Positions 1,664 to 21,031 of a stretch of DNA of 27,034 nt are shown here, piece by piece. Numbering within the stretch: the stretch's first letter is position 1; every line of letters begins with the position of its first letter. A program made the translations under genes and the position numbers. Source of the stretch: a virus; IMG/VR virus record IMGVR_UViG_3300045932_000313, positions 1 through 27,034 of that record, one strand, 5' to 3'. The notes beneath the pieces are model-generated. The model was not told where the DNA came from and did not search any database. It worked only from the letters and a program-made list of their open reading frames with translations.

Positions 1664-2053
1664 TCAGGCCGCGATGTCGGCGAAGTTGGCGACGTAGAAG
1701 TGCACCTCGCGCGTTACGCGGCCGCCACCCGTCAATCGGAGGTCGAGCGTGAGCACGCGCCGCTCGGCGCTCGCCGAGCCCAGGATCGCGGTGTCGCTCT
1801 CGGCGAACTGCAGCACGAACAGCCCGGTCGTCACCGACCCGCCGTTCTGCCCCAGGACCTCCTGCGCATCGCGCCCGTTGACGATCGTGTCCGACGCGAC
1901 ATCGCGCAGCGTCGCCAGGATGCTCGTCAGCTGGCCCGGCTCGACCAGGGCGCCGCTCGGCAGCGTGAGTGCGGCCCGATACTGATAGGTCGATCGCTCC
2001 GGGATCGCCTCCTTCACCAAAAACACTTTGCGGAAGTCTTCCTGGTTGTGCAT
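1664..2053 (-). CDS. Beta-rich phage structural-type protein, 129 aa
   Basis: A 129-residue protein (MHNQEDFRKVFLVKEAIPER...) with alternating hydrophobic strands. It contains LTSILATLRD, SDTIVNGRDAQEVLG, a mid-region TTGLFVLQFAESD and a C-terminal TREVHFYVANFADI. This pattern (L-T-L-D, then I-N-RDAQ-VL, then a basic strand ending in V-F-V-NL) resembles small beta-sandwich proteins common in tailed-phage structural regions, but I cannot name a family with certainty. Its ATG at 2053 overlaps the stop of the large repeat protein (TAATG), so translation of the two is likely coupled. A role in the virion or in fibre attachment is inferred from position. Confidence 0.65.
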   Translation of the reverse strand: MHNQEDFRKVFLVKEAIPERSTYQYRAALTLPSGALVEPGQLTSILATLRDVASDTIVNGRDAQEVLGQNGGSVTTGLFVLQFAESDTAILGSASAERRVLTLDLRLTGGGRVTREVHFYVANFADIAA

Positions 2054-4707
2054 TACGGCACCCAGCTTTCGTCGTCGAACGCCACCGGTGGTACGAGCCC
2101 TTCGTCATCGACGCGCACTGGCGCGACCAGGCGATCGTCGGCCACACGAATGATTGACACGGCCTCGGTGAACACCGATTCGGCGAGCCGGTGCCGCAGC
2201 GTCATCACGCTGCGCCCGCGCTGCGCCCGCGCAGTGCGCTCGAGGGCGCCGACACCGACGACGGCCTGCGTCCACGGTGTCAACGGCTCTTGTTCACGGT
2301 CGCTCGGCGCGCTCCAGAGCAGGGTCGTCGCGGCACGCAGGGCCGCGCGCCGCGGTGTCGCGAGCGCGCGCTGGACGGGCGCCGGCACAGGCGGCGCCTC
2401 GAGCAGATCGCCGGCGGGCGCACTGCGCAGGGCGATCGTCCGCGACGCGCGGAGCTGCAGCGTCGACCGCGCGAGCTCCAGTGCGCGGGTGCCGCTGACC
2501 GGCGGCGCCCACGTCGACTCGTCGCCGGCGGAGGCCTCGTCGGCGCGCGCCGCGCGCGGCGCCTGCGTGGCTGCGACCTTGCCCCATGCCGTGCGCCGAT
2601 GGCGCTCGATCGCGCGCGTGCCGGCAATTGGCTGAGTCCAGGTGCTCTCCTGCGCCGACAACGGCCCATCGAGGTCCTGCGCCGTCGCGCGCAGATACGT
2701 CGTCGTCGCGCGCGCCGCGCGCGTGGCCCGTGCCGCCGCGGCTGCACCGAGCATCCGCGTCCCGCTGACCGGCTGCGGCCAGGTGCTCTCTTCCGGCGGA
2801 GGTTGCAATGGCTCGAAGGCCTGGTGACCGCGCGCCGCGCGCGTCGCCGCGACTCGCCAGGCCAAGCGCGTGCTCGCTGACAGGGCGCGCGTGCCTGGCA
2901 CCTGCTGCGTCCAGGTGCTCTCCTGCGTCGGTAGCGGCGCGTCAGCGTCCTGCGCCGTCGTCCAGATCTGTGACCGTGCCGCGGAGAGCGCCCGCGCGCG
3001 CGCGGCCGCGGCGAGGCGGATCGCGCGAGTCCCGGACGTCGGCTGTGCCCACGTGGGTTCTTCCGGTGCGGCCGCTTGATCGCCGGCGCCGAACTGGCGC
3101 AGCGCGATCGATCGGCCCGCGAGCTGCGCGCGCTGCTGGATCGCTCTGCGCACGCCGCTCGTGCCAGGGATGGGCTGCGCGTACGTATCCGGCTGCTGCT
3201 CGAGCGGCGCGTTGTCGGCGCCAACGGATGCGCCGTACCAGAGGAGCCAGACGAGATTCTGGTACTGAGCTGGATGGAACACCGGACCTTGCCACCCGGA
3301 TTCCGTGAGCGCCTCGCCACCGCGGTCGCTGGCACGGAGATGCGTCGTCGCGCGATGCGCTCTCGACGCGAATGCCCGCGCTGATGCACCGAGCGCCCAC
3401 GTACCTGGCGTCCGCTGTGTTCCGGTGCTCTCCTGGACTGAGAGCGGCCCGTCCTCCTCTGGGAGTGACCAGAGCACCAGCCGCGAGGCGGAGATGGCGC
3501 GGCCGCGACTCAGCGCGCCCAGCCGCAGGGCGGCGGTGCCGAGCAGCGGCGCCGTCCACGTGCCAGACTCGGGCGGCGCGAGCTCCCCGATGTTCGATCG
3601 CAGACCACCGGTCAGCGTGACCAGGCGGCGCGACGCAGCGGCCGCACGCGCCAGCGCGGTCACTCCGGGCACCGGTTGAGTCCACGTGCTCTCTTGATTC
3701 GCCGGCGCGAGGTCGTATCCCGCCGCGAGGTTCGGACCGGCCGGCCAGGACTTCAAGCCTTGCCAGGCCCGTACGCCAATGGGGATCTCGACCACCCAGG
3801 TGTCCGGCTCTGGCACCGACGGCGGCACCTCGCCAGCGGTCATGCGCAGGCCCTGCGTCAGCGCGGCGCGGCCTGCCGGCCAGCTTCGCCCCAGCGATCG
3901 CGTGCCGGGGATCGGCTGCGTGTAGGTGTCCGGTTGGTTGGTCGGCGCGACGTCGTGTCCCGCCGCGAGGTTCGGGCCGGCCGGCCAGGACTTCAGCCCC
4001 GACCAGGCCCGGGCACCCACGACCTCCTGCGTCCACGTTTCGGGCTGCGTGGGCAACGGGCCATCGACGAAGCCCGCGACGTGCAGCAGCAGGCCCGCGG
4101 CGATCGCCGCGCGCGCGAACTCGGCGCTGCGTGATCGGATCGCGTTGTAGCCGCGGACCGGCATCGGCTGCAAGAGCGTCTGCGGCAATACGACGGTGAG
4201 ACTCGGCGTGACCGCGTAGGTGTCGAGCTGCGTGCCACCATCCCGCGTCAGGCGGAACTCGAGCACGTCGCCATCTGCGACGTCGGCGCCGACAATCTGC
4301 AGCGAGCATTCGGTTTCGCCGTTGCCGTTCGAGACAATGTCGAAGACCGTGCCTCCGGAAACGCCGTCCTCTGTGCACCCCGCGGACGACGACTCGAACG
4401 TCCCGGTGCCACTCAGGCGCTTGGTCGTGTTGTCGCCGTTTGCAAAGGCGACGGTCGCGACCGCGCGAACGATGCTCGACGACGTCGTGATGTTCTGATA
4501 GGCACCGCCGTTGCGGCGCACCTGGAACTCGGCGTCGACGTTGCTCTGGGCCGTGCCATCGCACTGCAGGCAGAACCGCAGCAAGAACGTCGTGTCAATC
4601 GGAATGACGCCACCGGATGGATTGGCGTCTTCCGCAGCATGCCACCCGTGGGTAGACTCAGTCCCCTCGTCGATGCCGAAGCGGTAATGACTTTGGGTGA
4701 CCGCCAC
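2053..4707 (-). CDS. Large protein with ~14-15 W/PGTRA repeats, probable fibre or surface protein
   Basis: 884 residues from GTG 4707. Residues about 1-185 look like a globular beta-domain: they carry four Cys (FCLQC, SAGCTED, TECSL) and strand-like segments. From about residue 200 to 850 the protein is made of degenerate units of 35-47 residues. A typical unit is E-S/D-T-W-T-Q-P-V/I-P-G-T-R-A-L/I, then an Ala/Arg-rich helix, then a strand such as LR or LVLW and an acidic linker like DGPLSAQ. Two units (residues about 232-256 and 312-336) share SGLKSWPAGPNLAAG or WQGLKSWPAGPNLAAG nearly unchanged. The C-terminus (RVADDRLVAPVRVDDEGLVPPV) has a different, shorter periodicity of V-x-DD/DE. No known repeat family is recognised. 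It is flanked by the beta-sandwich protein (upstream) and the 129-residue protein (coupled, TAATG). A virion-surface role is inferred from the neighbours; strength of the coding call is high because only this frame is open throughout. Confidence 0.85.
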   Translation of the reverse strand: MAVTQSHYRFGIDEGTESTHGWHAAEDANPSGGVIPIDTTFLLRFCLQCDGTAQSNVDAEFQVRRNGGAYQNITTSSSIVRAVATVAFANGDNTTKRLSGTGTFESSSAGCTEDGVSGGTVFDIVSNGNGETECSLQIVGADVADGDVLEFRLTRDGGTQLDTYAVTPSLTVVLPQTLLQPMPVRGYNAIRSRSAEFARAAIAAGLLLHVAGFVDGPLPTQPETWTQEVVGARAWSGLKSWPAGPNLAAGHDVAPTNQPDTYTQPIPGTRSLGRSWPAGRAALTQGLRMTAGEVPPSVPEPDTWVVEIPIGVRAWQGLKSWPAGPNLAAGYDLAPANQESTWTQPVPGVTALARAAAASRRLVTLTGGLRSNIGELAPPESGTWTAPLLGTAALRLGALSRGRAISASRLVLWSLPEEDGPLSVQESTGTQRTPGTWALGASARAFASRAHRATTHLRASDRGGEALTESGWQGPVFHPAQYQNLVWLLWYGASVGADNAPLEQQPDTYAQPIPGTSGVRRAIQQRAQLAGRSIALRQFGAGDQAAAPEEPTWAQPTSGTRAIRLAAAARARALSAARSQIWTTAQDADAPLPTQESTWTQQVPGTRALSASTRLAWRVAATRAARGHQAFEPLQPPPEESTWPQPVSGTRMLGAAAAARATRAARATTTYLRATAQDLDGPLSAQESTWTQPIAGTRAIERHRRTAWGKVAATQAPRAARADEASAGDESTWAPPVSGTRALELARSTLQLRASRTIALRSAPAGDLLEAPPVPAPVQRALATPRRAALRAATTLLWSAPSDREQEPLTPWTQAVVGVGALERTARAQRGRSVMTLRHRLAESVFTEAVSIIRVADDRLVAPVRVDDEGLVPPVAFDDESWVP
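3697..4012. repeat. Near-identical direct DNA repeats inside the repeat-protein gene
   Basis: Two stretches of about 75 bases, near 3697-3772 and 3937-4012, are almost the same (both contain CCCGCCGCGAGGTTCGG and GGCCGGCCAGGACTTCA) and are offset by about 240 bases, i.e. 80 codons or two protein repeats. The other protein repeats have diverged much more at the DNA level. Confidence 0.75.
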
Positions 4708-11540: not shown

Positions 11541-12070
11541 CAGTTCAATTCCCACCGATGCGTGACATGCCAGCCGCCCGAAGCGCGCGGGTAGAGCGCG
11601 ATCAGCTTAGGGACCGTCTCGCGTTCCCAATACCCGACGTCGGACCACCCCTGGTTAACATCGAAGACGCACGCGTCGTCGCCCGGCACCCGGCGGCGGA
11701 AGCACGCTACGCCAATCCAATGCGTCTGACGATAGGCCCACTTCGGATTCGCGCCCGGCTTCGTCCACGGCCCCTCCCACTGAATGCGGAGCAGCGCATA
11801 TTCACCGGCCAGGCCGCGCGTGGGTGCGGCCTGCTCGGTCCATCGCACGCCGAGACTGCGCAGCGCCGCTGCCATCATCGATGGACTGGTGTAGTGCCGT
11901 TCGCGGAAGTTCGGAATGTGCGGTAGCACGTCCAGCGGTTTCACGCCGAGCATGGCCGCCAGGGCCGCCGGACCGCAGTTCACGATTCCGAACGCGAGGA
12001 CGGCCGCGCGCCAATCATCGCTATCGAATCGGACCGCCGGGGCCGTTAGCTTCTCAAACTTCACGCTCAC
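11540..12070 (-). CDS. Papain-like (C39-type fold) cysteine protease-like protein
   Basis: 176 residues from GTG 12070. IVNCGPAALAAMLGV at 29-43 places the candidate nucleophile Cys32 in the classic NCGPAA/S helix of peptidase C39 and related papain-like folds. QTHWIGV puts His117 in the expected place and VFDVNQGW supplies Asp137 or Asn139. Length and motif order fit a single catalytic domain with no signal peptide. In phages such proteins might process virion proteins or act on peptidoglycan or host proteins; the target is unknown. It overlaps the SPFH-like gene upstream by GTGA and the 133-residue gene downstream by ATGA. Confidence 0.7.
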   Translation of the reverse strand: MSVKFEKLTAPAVRFDSDDWRAAVLAFGIVNCGPAALAAMLGVKPLDVLPHIPNFRERHYTSPSMMAAALRSLGVRWTEQAAPTRGLAGEYALLRIQWEGPWTKPGANPKWAYRQTHWIGVACFRRRVPGDDACVFDVNQGWSDVGYWERETVPKLIALYPRASGGWHVTHRWELN

Positions 12071-12603
12071 GACTGGAGATCCCCAGCCAGGCCGACCCTC
12101 TCGTGGTGCGGCGCCCAGTCACTCAGGTTCTTCAGCGAAAACACCGCACCGCGCTGCCCGATCTGGACCGCGTGAACCTTCACGCCATGCGGCTGCAACT
12201 TGCGCGCGAGGCAATCGGCGGTCCGTTCACCGAGCTCGTCGCTCGAGAGACCATCGTCGTAGACAGATTCCAACGAAGCCGCCGTCCAGTTCTCTACCGT
12301 CGCGCCGACGTCGTTCAACGAGAGCAGGGCCACCTTCGGAGCAGTAATCGTCCACGAGACGACGACCTCGACAACTTCCTGTCGCTTCAGCTGCGCGGAG
12401 AGCTTCATCGTGCGCAGCTGCATCGACACGAGCTGCAGCGAGTGAATGACGGGCCAGTAGACCAGCAGGCCAGGCCGATGTTCGGTCACGACGTCGCGGG
12501 GCCGAAACACCAGGGCGTGATGGCGGGACGTGACGAGCACCAACCGCGGTACCCACTTCGCGAGCCAGGTCATGAGCTCGTTCAGCCAGGCGAAGCCGCT
12601 CAT
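12067..12603 (-). CDS. SPFH / band-7-like membrane-associated protein
   Basis: 178 residues from ATG 12603. An amphipathic/hydrophobic N-terminus (WLNELMTWLAKWVPRLVLV) is followed by a stretch that follows the SPFH core: ALVFRPRDVVTEHRPGLLVY, then WPVIHSLQLVSMQLRT, then a strand-rich VEVVVSWTITAPKVALLSL and a helix with SSDELGERTADCLARKL, ending with GVKVHAVQIGQ. In HflK/C, stomatin and prohibitin the same order (R/G-x-V, PGLH-x-x-P, vdlR, vdvvv-x-y-x-i-x-dP, Gi-V-x-V-x-I) is seen. The protein is short, lacking the long C-terminal coiled coil. Phage-encoded SPFH proteins are rarely described; membrane anchoring is likely, function unknown. Confidence 0.65.
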   Translation of the reverse strand: MSGFAWLNELMTWLAKWVPRLVLVTSRHHALVFRPRDVVTEHRPGLLVYWPVIHSLQLVSMQLRTMKLSAQLKRQEVVEVVVSWTITAPKVALLSLNDVGATVENWTAASLESVYDDGLSSDELGERTADCLARKLQPHGVKVHAVQIGQRGAVFSLKNLSDWAPHHERVGLAGDLQS

Positions 12604-14191: not shown

Positions 14192-15120
14192 AGCAGCCCC
14201 TTTCGCTGCAGGTGCGCCCTGGCGCGCTCGATGCCCTCACCGACGCTCGCGCCGTCGTATTTCAGATTCGCCTTCGCACAGGCGGTTTTCAGAATCTCCC
14301 TAAGCTCGCCATCGTCGGTCTCAGAACGATGGCGAAGAAGGACATGACGAGCCAGCGCTGCGATGACTTTGACAGCGGGGCGGCCATCTGGCGTTTCCTT
14401 AGAACGAGCCCGCCGAAGCAGCTGAATCCTCAGCTCTTGGCCAGAATCCGAGGTTTCAACATCTTCAACAGCATGAGAAAACGCGCTTGGCGCGTGTTCT
14501 TGCTTTTCAGTACAAGTACTCCGTACAGACGAAGAGATCTGGTTGGTACAAGTACGATCGTGGTACGTGGATCCCTCGTTCCGGACGGCGTTCGGGACGC
14601 GTTCCACGCCGCATTCCATGCGTGCCGGAACGCGTTCCGGTGACTGTCTAGCCGTTCCGGAACGCGTTCCATGACGCGTTCCCGCGCCAGCCTGATAGGC
14701 TTCTTCCACGACGTCATCGAGCAGGTTGACGACATGCTCGGACATCGCCGGCGGCACGCGACCGAGGCCTCGCTTCCGCTTAAATCGATCTTTGCGGTCC
14801 TTCGATCGCCGGCGCTCGACCAGGATTTCGTCGCGGGAATCGTTCCAATCGAGGAAGTCATGGATCCGATAGCCACCGTCCACCTTGTGCCAGAGCGGTC
14901 CCTTGCCTGGCGCCAGCACGCGACAGAGCTCGTCGGCCACGGCTTCCCGGCTCTTCGCGCGCACGCCGAAGTTGTGAATCATGTAGCCGGGAATGAAGCC
15001 ATCGGTGAGCTCGGCGTTGGCGTAGTTGACGCCCGCCCAATACATACGGGCCGCGCTGTCACTGAGCGCGAGCAGCTTGGGATCCTTGTAGGCGCCGTCG
15101 TGAATGCGTCCCCAGGGCAT
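14188..15120 (-). CDS. Replication-initiator-like protein carrying iteron-like repeats in its gene
   Basis: 310 residues from ATG 15120 (MPWGRIHDGAYKDPKLLALS), overlapping the upstream stop by TGATG. The first 110 residues resemble the winged-helix N-terminal domain of phage replication proteins/replisome organisers: DSAARMYWAGVNYANAELTD, GFIPGYMIHNFGVRA, then WHKVDGGYRIHDFLDWN, ending in a basic stretch KDRKDRFKRKRG. The middle, about residues 140-205, is low complexity and is where the DNA holds an array of GGAACGCG-type repeats and two GTACAAGTAC repeats. The C-terminal third is helical (AVKVIAALARHVLL, GELREILKTACAKANL) and could contact a helicase loader. The layout (DNA-binding domain, repeats in the gene, C-terminal partner domain) mirrors lambda O; homology to O is not claimed. 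Confidence 0.7.
   Translation of the reverse strand: MPWGRIHDGAYKDPKLLALSDSAARMYWAGVNYANAELTDGFIPGYMIHNFGVRAKSREAVADELCRVLAPGKGPLWHKVDGGYRIHDFLDWNDSRDEILVERRRSKDRKDRFKRKRGLGRVPPAMSEHVVNLLDDVVEEAYQAGAGTRHGTRSGTARQSPERVPARMECGVERVPNAVRNEGSTYHDRTCTNQISSSVRSTCTEKQEHAPSAFSHAVEDVETSDSGQELRIQLLRRARSKETPDGRPAVKVIAALARHVLLRHRSETDDGELREILKTACAKANLKYDGASVGEGIERARAHLQRKGLL
14481..14687. other. Candidate replication origin (iteron array plus palindromes)
   Basis: On the gene strand eight units of the type GGAACG(CG) begin at intervals of about 12, 12, 20, 21, 12, 11 and 12 bases between 14687 and 14577. Two of them form longer palindromes: CCGGAACGCGTTCCGG at 14625-14640 and CCGGAACGCGTTCC at 14657-14670. 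Downstream lie GTACAAGTAC at 14546-14555 and 14510-14519, and the hairpin ACGCGC-TTG-GCGCGT at 14481-14495, followed by DNA of lower GC. Helically phased repeats in an initiator gene are typical of phage origins. Confidence 0.6.
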
Positions 15121-15605
15121 CAGTGGATGGCCTCGTTGCGAAACAGCGAGCCCTGCTCGCGATCGCCGGCGAGATAGCGCTCCGCTTCGACACAAAGCGC
15201 CCGCACGCGACGAATGGTGTTCGCCGGCAGGACGGGGCCTCCGCTCTCGCCGTAAGGCTTCTCAGGCAAGTGTGGCGTGTTCAGAATCAGCGGGGCCGGG
15301 CACATCATCAGGTCCTTCGTCGCCGTCAGGACCGCACCGAGGATGCCGTCCTTGTAGGTCAACGAGCATCCGAGCACCTTGACCTTCGACGCCTCAGACG
15401 ACGGGAACTCGCAGATGACGCAGACATCGTCGACGAGCGCGCGGAGAGCCGTCTTGAACTCGGCGAGAGGGAGGTCGGCACACTGGAGCGAGTACTCGTC
15501 TGGATCGCCCCCGCCTGGGCGGATCACCTCATACTCGAGACGCACTCTCGAGCCGTCGAACTTGATTTTCGTGAACCGCGTTTCTGGCTTCCGTCGCGAG
15601 CTCAT
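15120..15605 (-). CDS. Conserved phage hypothetical protein, 161 aa
   Basis: 161 residues from ATG 15605 (MSSRRKPETRFTKIKFDGSR). Mixed alpha/beta: VRLEYEVIRPGGGDPDEYSL, then LPLAEFKTALRALVDDVCVI, CEFPSSEASKVKVLGCSLTY and GAVLTATKDLMMC, with a C-terminal helix RRVRALCVEAERYLAGDR and SLF near the end. I recognise this type as recurring in environmental phages but know no function. Three or more Cys are scattered, not paired. Overlaps the zinc-type gene upstream by ATGA and the initiator gene downstream by TGATG, so it probably belongs to a replication block. Confidence 0.75.
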   Translation of the reverse strand: MSSRRKPETRFTKIKFDGSRVRLEYEVIRPGGGDPDEYSLQCADLPLAEFKTALRALVDDVCVICEFPSSEASKVKVLGCSLTYKDGILGAVLTATKDLMMCPAPLILNTPHLPEKPYGESGGPVLPANTIRRVRALCVEAERYLAGDREQGSLFRNEAIH

Positions 15606-17010: not shown

Positions 17011-17279
17011 GAGGTCACCGTCTCGGCCCAGCTCGGAGCGATTCGCATCGACCGCAGGAATCGGCGATCAGCCGACGTCAGAATCACGCGCTTCTCGTTC
17101 TGAAAGTCGACGCTGCCGCAGCGCCCACACGGGCTGAGCGATCGCGTCCGAAACAGCGAACCAGGGGCGAGAATGACGTGAGGCAGGATGAACGTCGCCG
17201 GCGTCGCGCAGTTCGAACACCAGAGACGGATCCCGTGCCGCGGCAGCCCACCTTGCGCCTCACCGTCACGCCGGCTCAC
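17007..17279 (-). CDS. Zinc-ribbon protein, 90 aa
   Basis: 90 residues from GTG 17279. LWCSNCATPATFILPHVILA and LSPCGRCGSVDFQNEKRVIL form a zinc ribbon with two CxxC pairs about 28 residues apart. The C-terminal part (TSADRRFLRSMRIAPSWAET) is helical and basic. Unknown function. Overlaps by GTGA with the DUF5131 gene upstream and by ATGA with the 114-residue gene downstream. Confidence 0.65.
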   Translation of the reverse strand: MSRRDGEAQGGLPRHGIRLWCSNCATPATFILPHVILAPGSLFRTRSLSPCGRCGSVDFQNEKRVILTSADRRFLRSMRIAPSWAETVTS

Positions 17280-18313
17280 TGTGTCACCGCCGGGAATTCC
17301 CGCACGCGCAGGTCTTCAGGCCATTCGGATGGATCGCCGCCTTTCCCGTTTGAACCGCGATACGCCTGGCGATGACAGCCGCCACACCGGCCGCAGAAGC
17401 CGTCAGCCTCAACGCCTTTACATGACGGGCAGGGGATGAACGGCCATGATCCAACCTGCTTCACGAAGCACGCGACACCGGCCGCCTTGCACTGCCGGAC
17501 GATTGACCGCGCCCACGCGAGATCGAACGGCCGCGCGCGCGAACCACTCTCGCCGCCGACGATCACCCAATCGAGACATGGCAATGAGCCGGACCAACGA
17601 GAGCCATCAGCCAACGGCACACCGAGGTTCAAACCGAAGTCCAAAGGCCCGAGCAACGGCTCCGCGCTGATGAACCGCACCGCCGCCGGCGTCTGCAGCA
17701 ACAGCGGGATCCGCTCGTCTGCATACTGCTGGTTCTCCACGGAGACACCGAGCCAGACGTTCTTCAGCGGCCAGTACTGCATGTGCCACGAGGTGCCGTC
17801 GGCCGTCGGTTGCCACCAGATCACACGCTCGTCAGGCAGCGTATGCGGCTGCGTTCGCGTGTGCAGTGCTTGAGCAGCGTTGGCGACATCGACGTGCCTG
17901 TAGTCGTTGAAGTACGCGCGCATTCGATCCGCGCGCTTCGTGAGGACCTGGAACGTGTGAAGCGGCGCCAGCGCCATCACTGCGAACACCTTGTCGATGA
18001 ACGCGTCCGGCACGTCCTCGTGGAACATGTCGCTCATCGAGTTGACGAACACCCGCCGCGGCTTCCCCCACGACAGCGGCTCGAGCAGCCGGTCCTCGAT
18101 CATGTTCAAGTGCCCCGTCCAATCGAGCTTGCCGTTGGCGTGGCGCGTCGTCGTGCCCTCGTAGGCCATCCGTATCTTCGGATTCGGGTTCGACGACAGC
18201 TTGTGCGCGACGGGCACGGCGTAACAGTGCGCGCAGCCCGGCGAGAGCTTGTCGCACCCCGTGGTCGGGTTCCAGGTCGTCTCGGTCCACTCGATCGAAC
18301 TGTTCGAGCTCAC
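17276..18313 (-). CDS. DUF5131 (phage Gp37/Gp68) family protein with extra zinc insert
   Basis: 345 residues from GTG 18313. IEWTETTWNPTTGCDKLSPG then CAHCYA gives Cys20, Cys27 and Cys30, the three-Cys motif of Pfam Gp37/Gp68 (DUF5131), which resembles radical-SAM-type cluster motifs. Other family landmarks are present: RRVFVNSMSDMFHEDVPD, HTFQVLTKRADRMR, NVWLGVSVENQQYADERIP, RFISAEPLLGPLDF, WVIVGGESGSRARPFD and the C-terminal GDPSEWPEDLRVREFP. Between FVKQVGSW and that C-terminus, at about residues 295-313, sits a CPSC-x8-CGRCGGC insert, which looks like an added zinc site. Enzymatic activity is unproven. In other genomes the three-Cys protein often pairs with TcmP; no TcmP is visible here. 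Confidence 0.92.
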   Translation of the reverse strand: MSSNSSIEWTETTWNPTTGCDKLSPGCAHCYAVPVAHKLSSNPNPKIRMAYEGTTTRHANGKLDWTGHLNMIEDRLLEPLSWGKPRRVFVNSMSDMFHEDVPDAFIDKVFAVMALAPLHTFQVLTKRADRMRAYFNDYRHVDVANAAQALHTRTQPHTLPDERVIWWQPTADGTSWHMQYWPLKNVWLGVSVENQQYADERIPLLLQTPAAVRFISAEPLLGPLDFGLNLGVPLADGSRWSGSLPCLDWVIVGGESGSRARPFDLAWARSIVRQCKAAGVACFVKQVGSWPFIPCPSCKGVEADGFCGRCGGCHRQAYRGSNGKGGDPSEWPEDLRVREFPAVTQ

Positions 18314-19549: not shown

Positions 19550-19882
19550 TCAATCTCTCGTCACACCCTTGACGAAGCTCGCTTGGCGCGAACGCCGCAT
19601 CTCGTCAACACGTCCACCCATCGAGGCCGTGAACCCATCGCGAGGCTTGTTCTCCCAGGGCGACGATCCGCGTTTCGCCGGCGGCCGCCCGCGAGGAGGT
19701 TTCGATGGCACGGGCACCGGCGGCCGAGGAGCAGGCGGCGGCTCGTCGAGCGCTTCATCGGTGTCGAGGTCGGCATCAGCCGAGTCGTCGGCAATGTCGT
19801 TCTCGAGGTCGTCGTCCTCGAGGATGACGCTGCGTCGCGGTTGCGATGGCGGCCGAACTGGTGGCGCTGCTGCAGCCGGTTC
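19550..19882 (-). CDS. Acidic/Pro-rich C-terminal part, reached by +1 frameshift
   Basis: 110 codons after the shift, from GAA at 19882 to TGA 19550. It starts EPAAAAPPVRPPSQPRRSVI, has a strongly acidic block LEDDDLENDIADDSADADLD, a Pro-rich KPPRGRPPAKRGSSPWENKP and ends with DGFTASMGGRVDEMRRSRQA. No ATG, GTG or TTG occurs in this frame for about the first 60 codons, although codon use (GC-rich third positions) looks genuinely coding. Options are a programmed +1 shift from the winged-helix gene, a sequencing indel or an unusual start; the prfB-like context favours the first. Confidence 0.6.
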   Translation of the reverse strand, partial: EPAAAAPPVRPPSQPRRSVILEDDDLENDIADDSADADLDTDEALDEPPPAPRPPVPVPSKPPRGRPPAKRGSSPWENKPRDGFTASMGGRVDEMRRSRQASFVKGVTRD

Positions 19883-19898
19883 AAACCGGCCTCCTCGA
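19876..19898 (-). promoter_or_regulatory. Candidate +1 programmed frameshift site (prfB-like)
   Basis: Reads AGGAGG, 3 bases (CCG), GUU, UGA, A on the mRNA. E. coli prfB has AGGGGG, 3 bases, CUU, UGA, C. The order and spacing are the same: Shine-Dalgarno-like hexamer, three bases, slip codon, UGA. A 6-bp stem (GCCGGU/ACCGGC, loop UUGA) overlaps the site. Confidence 0.5.
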
Positions 19899-20381
19899 CG
19901 CCGCCGGCGTCTGCGGCGCAGACGCCGCCCCTGCGTGCCACCGTGTCCCAGCGCGGACGCCAGTCGAGTGCACGCGCCCTTGGGCCTCGAGGTCGTGCAG
20001 CGCCTTGGTCACGCGCGGCCGCAGCCAGCCCACCTTCTTGGCGATCTCGCCGGACTTCAACGAGCCGCGCTGCAGCAGTCGAACGATGCCCTCTTGATCG
20101 GATGCTCCGGCAGAAACGGGGGGGGCTTCACGAGTGCGGCGCGCCACCACACGTTCCGCCTTCTCGACCCGCCGGCCACGCTTCGCACCGCCGCGGCGCC
20201 TCCGGTATGCGCGGCGCGGTGCCGGTGACTCGAGGACCGGCGGACCAGGCGGCAGAGCCAGTCGCAAAGGCGCACCTGGTTGCCGGGGAAGCGCGACGTC
20301 AAGCAGCTGTTGCACCTCGCTGGGTGTGTCGACTTCCACCTCGAGATCGCCACCGGCACGCATGCGAATTCGAAACGGCAT
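19881..20381 (-). CDS. Winged-helix DNA-binding protein, zero-frame part of a likely frameshifted gene
   Basis: 166 residues from ATG 20381 (MPFRIRMRAGGDLEVEVDTP), coupled to the methyltransferase gene by TGATG. After an Arg/Pro linker (RRAYRRRRGGAKRGRRVEKA) comes a winged-helix domain at about residues 95-150: QEGIVRLLQRGSLKSGEIAK, KVGWLRPRVTKALHDLEAQG and RVHSTGVRAGTRWHAG. It ends with RRPV-stop at TGA 19881. Just before the stop the mRNA reads AGG AGG CCG GUU UGA, the same spacing as the prfB +1 frameshift site. The downstream frame continues without a normal start, so the full product may have about 276 residues. It is probably a regulator. Confidence 0.72.
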   Translation of the reverse strand: MPFRIRMRAGGDLEVEVDTPSEVQQLLDVALPRQPGAPLRLALPPGPPVLESPAPRRAYRRRRGGAKRGRRVEKAERVVARRTREAPPVSAGASDQEGIVRLLQRGSLKSGEIAKKVGWLRPRVTKALHDLEAQGRVHSTGVRAGTRWHAGAASAPQTPAASRRPV

Positions 20382-21031
20382 CACAGTTCTCCTGAGGGCT
20401 GCGCGTCGGGAACGGGCGCTTCGTTGCCCCACACATCCCAACCGGCCGGCGCGATTCGAGCGAAGCACTCGAGATAGGGGCCAGGACTCACCAACTCGAC
20501 GAACGCGCGCATCTCGGGAGGCTTCGCGGAATGGCGCGTGCGCGTGGCTTCGAACGCCCGCGGCAACTGCGCCGGCTCAGGGAGCTCCTCGACGTCCGGA
20601 TCGGGGTGGAACAGCACCGTCTCGCCCTGCGCGCGCTTGCCATCGGGCGCGATGCGATACGGCAACCGGCCTCGCACGGCGAACAGACAGTGCTCGGTCC
20701 GGCCGCGGAAGTACTGGCCCAGGCCCGCGCGGTCCTTGACCCAGGTCACGAGCGTCACCGGACGGAATCCCCACCCGCGCACGGCGGCGAAGCCGGCCTC
20801 GAGGTAGTTGTTGGTCAGCCAGCAGTAACAGTGCGCGTCGGCCGCGGCCCACTCGCCGAACGGCAGGCGCTGAATGTCCTTCACCGGCATCAGCGGGTAG
20901 TGGCGATCCGCGCCGCGCTGCACCTGGCCACCGCCGTGCTCGGGCCAGGGCGGATCCAGATACAGCACGTGATAGGCGCCCGCCTGTGGCGGCCCCGGCA
21001 CGGACACGGAGAAGAGCGACGACTGCGGCAT
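20381..21031 (-). CDS. MT-A70-type DNA adenine methyltransferase
   Basis: 216 residues from ATG 21031 (MPQSSLFSVSVPGPPQAGAY), 4 bases after the ParB-like gene. DPPW at residues 26-29 (VLYLDPPWPEHGGG) is the catalytic motif of N6-adenine methyltransferases of the MT-A70/Ime4 class. Other landmarks are the HYPLMPVKDIQRLPF segment, CYCWLTNNYLEAGFAAVRGW, PVTLVTWVKDRAGLGQYF, RGRTEHCLFAVRG and, near the end, KPPEMRAFVELVSPGPYLE plus CFARIAPAGWDVWGNE. Length fits the single-domain phage enzymes. No restriction partner is visible, so it most likely modifies phage DNA to evade host cleavage or regulates timing (inference). Confidence 0.9.
   Translation of the reverse strand: MPQSSLFSVSVPGPPQAGAYHVLYLDPPWPEHGGGQVQRGADRHYPLMPVKDIQRLPFGEWAAADAHCYCWLTNNYLEAGFAAVRGWGFRPVTLVTWVKDRAGLGQYFRGRTEHCLFAVRGRLPYRIAPDGKRAQGETVLFHPDPDVEELPEPAQLPRAFEATRTRHSAKPPEMRAFVELVSPGPYLECFARIAPAGWDVWGNEAPVPDAQPSGEL

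Follow-up and report, generated by a model that had tools for sequence, protein, structure and literature searches.

The +1 shift at CUU-UGA stimulated by a Shine-Dalgarno (SD) sequence is a textbook case of programmed frameshifting. In prfB, the gene of release factor 2 (RF2), an SD-like sequence is separated from CTTT by 3 bases, with TGA-C following (PMC12421855, PMC5009743). In the account of RF2 given in PMC5009743, the SD sequence stands three bases before the P-site codon, termination at UGA is slow and the ribosome slips by +1; in the substitution tests reported there, CUU_U outperforms all other shift sites by a wide margin. In RECODE, every CUU-stop +1 shift belongs to prfB (PMC10885494). 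The prfB frameshift is often missing from high-GC hosts, and in M. smegmatis shifting on the prfB site reaches only about 6% (PMC12421855). In vitro, a GC-rich upstream hairpin can partly mimic the effect of the SD (PMC6321510).

The window considered here is a 27,034-base IMG/VR virus record. On its minus strand, the end of a putative winged-helix gene carries a layout closely resembling that of prfB. Judging from the sequence, we favour the view that this is a +1 programmed ribosomal frameshift of the RF2 (prfB) type, located in a phage gene that is not prfB, and consider it probable, with some reserve. Some ribosomes would probably slip at the window site and add a 110-residue tail.

Layout of the candidate site

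The winged-helix frame ends in the window with ...TCG AGG AGG CCG GTT TGA A (Table 1), a layout that is read directly from the DNA. The order of hexamer, 3-base gap, slip codon and UGA described in the first-pass annotation is thus present on the minus strand, and the lengths that it predicted for the two products (166 and 276 residues) are correct. Also as described, 110 codons of the +1 frame are open before a stop that directly adjoins the next gene (TGAGATG). The same annotation had put the part of this frame devoid of start codons at about 60 codons; such a stretch exists but covers 55, the first ATG, GTG or TTG being codon 56.

An internal SD of the AGGRGG type is found three bases 5' of the slip codon both in the window and in a related phage, L005, described below. 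The slip codon of prfB, CTT or rarely TTT, is matched by CTT in L005 and replaced by GTT in the window. The base 3' of the TGA, which is C in prfB, is C in L005 and A in the window. From its sequence, the window site would work like a prfB site yet it falls outside the strict CTT definition.

Table 1. Features at and around the candidate frameshift site of the window
Feature	Position	Strand	Details
Upstream gene, MT-A70-type methyltransferase	20381-21031	-	Stop overlaps the winged-helix ATG (TGATG)
Zero-frame (winged-helix) gene, 166 aa	19881-20381	-	ATG at 20381, stop TGA 19883-19881
Hairpin with 10-bp stem	19905-19927	-	Nearly perfect GC-rich inverted repeat, 9 bases 5' of AGGAGG
Internal SD-like AGGAGG	19895-19890	-	Read in zero frame as two AGG Arg codons
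Spacer CCG	19889-19887	-	
Slip codon GTT	19886-19884	-	GTT plus T of TGA gives GTTT
Zero-frame stop TGA	19883-19881	-	Next base A
+1-frame extension, 110 codons + TGA	19550-19882	-	Stop TGA 19552-19550
-1-frame ORF (rival), 107 codons	19561-19884	-	TTG five bases after AGGAGG (AGGAGG-CCGGT-TTGA)
Gene after the site, 96 aa	19258-19548	-	51% identical to the gene after the L005 site

The zero-frame protein consists of an N-terminal beta-beta-helix region and a C-terminal winged-helix domain (MarR/TrmB/DUF7343-like). Its Pfam matches (DUF7343 at 2.9e-5, also TrmB and MarR) lie just below the cut-offs. DUF7343 scores 24.3 bits against a curated cut-off of 27.6, and for the L005 homologue TrmB scores 25.2 bits against 25.6. 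The predicted protein is winged-helix-like, without family assignment, and putatively DNA-binding. It differs from RF2, and the prfB attributes of location in the RF2 gene and autoregulation by RF2 are absent.

In the proposed mechanism the last sense codon (GUU in the window, CUU in L005) would be decoded and the ribosome would wait with UGA in the A site, while the AGGAGG three bases upstream would pair with 16S rRNA and strain the P-site codon. RF2 may then terminate, giving the 166-residue winged-helix protein. Alternatively the peptidyl-tRNA may slip one base forward, upon which the ribosome would read GAA (GAC in L005) and make a product with an added C-terminal tail, 276 residues long in the window and 269 in L005. 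It is the slippage itself, its rate and a role for both proteins that we infer here. Because a move from GUU to UUU leaves a first-position mismatch and A rather than C follows the UGA, frameshifting would probably be less efficient in the window than in L005.

The hairpin upstream of the hexamer is a possible extra stimulator of the frameshift. It shows no conservation in L005 and is no better than shuffles, and the same comparison of RNA structure around the site gave no better result than shuffles in either phage. Rfam returned no match up to the gathering score, and no tRNA was found.

The motif is rare. The window contains a single copy of AGGRGGNNNNTTTGA, where shuffles predict 0.01; L005 likewise has one copy, and a full-length search of five further ParB-related phage records found none. 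In these phages AGG accounts for 3% of the Arg codons, GTT for 5% of the Val codons and CTT for 4% of the Leu codons. Since all three are rare, the match to AGG AGG N GTT/CTT is one at the DNA level, directly observed, and not a by-product of the encoded peptide. On the codon usage of the window, any one gene end would carry AGG-RGG-N-NTT with a probability of about 1.3e-6. Within the fetched loci, which total 1.93 Mb and are partly redundant, the two orthologous sites are the only ones where the motif is accompanied by both a zero-frame gene and a +1 frame of 100 codons or more each. Two further matches were set aside as frameshift candidates, one (in L023) with a +1 frame that closes after 8 codons and the other (in L106) lacking a zero-frame ORF.

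The orthologous site in a related phage

The related phage is represented by two records, L005 (IMGVR_UViG_3300045933_000251) and L003 (IMGVR_UViG_3300045932_000326), which come from two assemblies and are identical across 2,755 shared bases. Both were first reached via the neighbouring ParB protein and not via either part of the candidate gene. They are collinear with the window, with protein identity of roughly 40 to 88%. The winged-helix homologue (L005:2092-2565) aligns with the window protein at 49% identity and ends GCG AGG AGG GCG CTT TGA C, showing every sequence feature of prfB: the SD-like hexamer, three bases, and CTT TGA C. The +1 frame of L005 has 112 open codons and its stop overlaps the start of the next gene (ATGA). 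The two proteins are about half identical, yet the pair of AGG codons, the spacing and NTT-TGA have persisted, and this conservation of the orthologous site is a direct observation.

A sequencing or assembly error, in which the loss or gain of a single base near 19881-19900 broke one gene in two, would be conceivable for the single metagenome record that the window represents. However, L005 is independent, and shows the same relation of zero to +1 frame and the prfB-like motif, identical in two assemblies. Because the orthologous site of a second phage has this same layout, an indel is a very unlikely explanation.

The site is found in two independent phages only. Viral contigs, phage records and genome contigs yielded no relatives of the zero-frame or +1 part beyond L003 and L005, and near relatives of the window were possibly left out of the collections searched. 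Among plasmids and 396 genomes from the phylum to which a ParB-bearing MAG belongs, there were weak matches only, all to the winged-helix part, and a profile of the gene following the site again recovered L005 only. The ParB-related phages L004, L006-L010 and L012 carry different genes downstream of ParB.

The two tails show no homology to each other, so that either a fusion or a separate tail gene could be under selection. We count this against the frameshift reading, to the extent that selection on one fused protein is meant. The +1 extension of the window comprises an acidic block, a Pro-rich linker and a basic end, and a sequence search gave no family match for it. A single-sequence fold of the fused window protein is of low confidence (mean pLDDT 50), with the tail mostly unstructured. 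In the AlphaFold model of the L005 tail, a helical hairpin is predicted with confidence (pLDDT about 86-93).

The surroundings of the locus also show differences. The gene that separates ParB from the winged-helix gene is the MT-A70-type methyltransferase of Table 1 in the window, and in L005 it encodes a protein without Pfam match (L005:1248-1883). This position is a case of cassette-like replacement beside the candidate frameshift gene, as are the two unrelated tails. Further downstream, a DUF5131 (PHROG 2045) protein (window 17276-18313, minus strand) follows the locus in both phages. A 161-aa protein without Pfam match (15120-15605, minus strand) is 88% identical to its L005 counterpart, where its neighbours reach about 50 to 70%; from its sequence it appears either strongly conserved or recently exchanged. 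The window also encodes, on the minus strand, an SPFH/Band 7 domain protein (12067-12603; PF01145, E 2.1e-5, above cut-off), which is unusual for a phage, and an 884-aa protein (2053-4707) with recurring Trp/Pro motifs (ESTWTQPVPGTRAL-like) and no Pfam match.

Reading frames downstream of the stop

In GC-rich DNA, an open frame of 110 codons is by itself weak evidence, and the -1 frame of the window is open as well, over 107 codons. Coding content was scored with a 3-periodic Markov model, which ranks the +1 frame above the other five in both tails. The scores are -0.093 against -0.202 in the window, where the winged-helix gene itself scores -0.083, and 0.223 against -0.088 in L005. When the model was trained on a larger set, the margin of the +1 frame over the next forward frame came to 33.5 bits for the window and to 69.9 bits for L005. 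In a calibration on segments where the -1 frame is the true one, the +1 frame gained any lead in only 0.7%. By this measure the +1 frame carries a moderate coding signal in the window and a strong one in L005. The scores support the coding content that the first-pass annotation had claimed for this frame in the window.

These scores bear on the proposal that the site is a decayed or chance one, GTT and TGA-A being a remnant without biological effect and the downstream stretch barely translated. Both altered positions matter for prfB shifting, and the coding score of the window tail is low in absolute terms. However, the tail scores about like the winged-helix gene, and AGG AGG, the spacing and NTT-TGA have been retained across diverged proteins. 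We regard decay or chance as very unlikely.

The true downstream gene of the window might instead be the -1-frame ORF that starts at TTG within a TTGA overlap. The TTG has ideal SD spacing, such overlaps are typical of the gene junctions of this phage, and the frame is open throughout its 107 codons. Its product, however, is rich in Arg, Ser and Thr and resembles that of a shadow frame, falling 33.5 bits short of the +1 frame. Its GC content by codon position is 0.59/0.69/0.75, compared with 0.79/0.60/0.73 for the winged-helix gene, and the counterpart in L005 closes after 13 codons. This shadow-like character, together with the early closure in L005, makes a gene starting at the TTG highly unlikely.

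Ordinary translational coupling is a more serious alternative, in which AGGAGG would hold the terminating ribosome and the downstream frame would be a separate gene started nearby. In L005 the start would be a GTG eight codons into the +1 frame, which has GGAGG eight bases upstream; in the window an unrecognised or non-standard start would have to be assumed. Gene junctions of the window phage are often overlapping NTGA (GTGA or ATGA), and the next junction downstream, AGGAGG-ATGGC-GTGA, has the same shape as AGGAGG-N5-TTGA. SD sequences that serve coupling are common near gene ends (PMC5009743), and the tails are non-homologous, as separate genes would be. However, the 55 codons of the window +1 frame that lack a start contain no equivalent of the L005 GTG. 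Coupling also leaves unexplained the in-phase NTT before TGA at equal spacing in both phages, and the TGA-C of L005. On this evidence coupling seems rather unlikely, and the frameshift remains the preferred reading.

The comparison with homologues proposed in the first-pass annotation has a divided outcome, with the same split of zero and +1 frames in L005 and a possible GTG start of its own after GGAGG, a feature of the kind that the annotation had listed as a refutation. The same applies to its prfB-like reading. The canonical orthologous site, the rare codons and the coding signal in both phages speak for it, while the non-homologous tails, the possible GTG in L005, and GTT and A off consensus in the window speak against it. 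The frequent absence of the prfB shift from high-GC hosts is a further count against frameshifting.

Comparison with known frameshifting systems

Within a literature of incomplete coverage, no phage regulator gene with a site of the prfB type was found. The +1 shifts of the Listeria phages PSA, A118 and A500 (tsh at CCC_UGA, and PSA cps) also concern phage genes, and the shift at the UGA of tsh likewise gives a second product that is extended C-terminally. They differ in that structural genes and a proline CCC slip codon are involved, and an AGGAGG stimulator at three-base spacing is not described in the passages of PMC5009743 from which this account of the Listeria phages is drawn.

Frameshifts in the phage tail assembly chaperones (G/GT) resemble the present case in recurring between phages despite divergence of the proteins. 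Those are mostly -1 shifts at heptamers in tail genes, whereas here a +1 shift would take place at the stop codon of a putative DNA-binding gene that neighbours ParB and methyltransferase genes. The C-terminal Ig-like extensions that phages add by frameshifting, whose shift direction varies between phages, are similar in placing a variable extension on a conserved base protein. Sequence search gave no Ig-like match for the tails described here, and the two have no relation to each other.

The closest likeness is to prfB, with which the site shares the AGGRGG hexamer, the three-base spacer, an NTT slip codon, the in-frame TGA and a long +1 frame, and, in L005 only, the CTT slip codon and C after TGA. 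The window differs from prfB in its GTT and TGA-A. The gene is a phage winged-helix gene and not that of RF2, so RF2-type autoregulation does not apply. The site ends a long zero frame, which would give products of 166 and 276 aa, in contrast to the short peptide and full-length product of prfB. It is conceivable, although we consider it doubtful, that the ratio of the winged-helix and tailed forms tracks the RF2 or termination capacity of the host, the RF2-specific slow stop acting as a sensor. If so, an early phage regulator would be tuned by the state of the host translation machinery. Further cases could be found by searching gene ends for AGGRGG-N3-YTT-TGA together with a coding +1 frame, and a genuine frameshift here would offer a simple reporter test. 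If the frameshift reading is correct, a prfB-type device at the orthologous site of two diverged phages would represent this mechanism recruited outside RF2.
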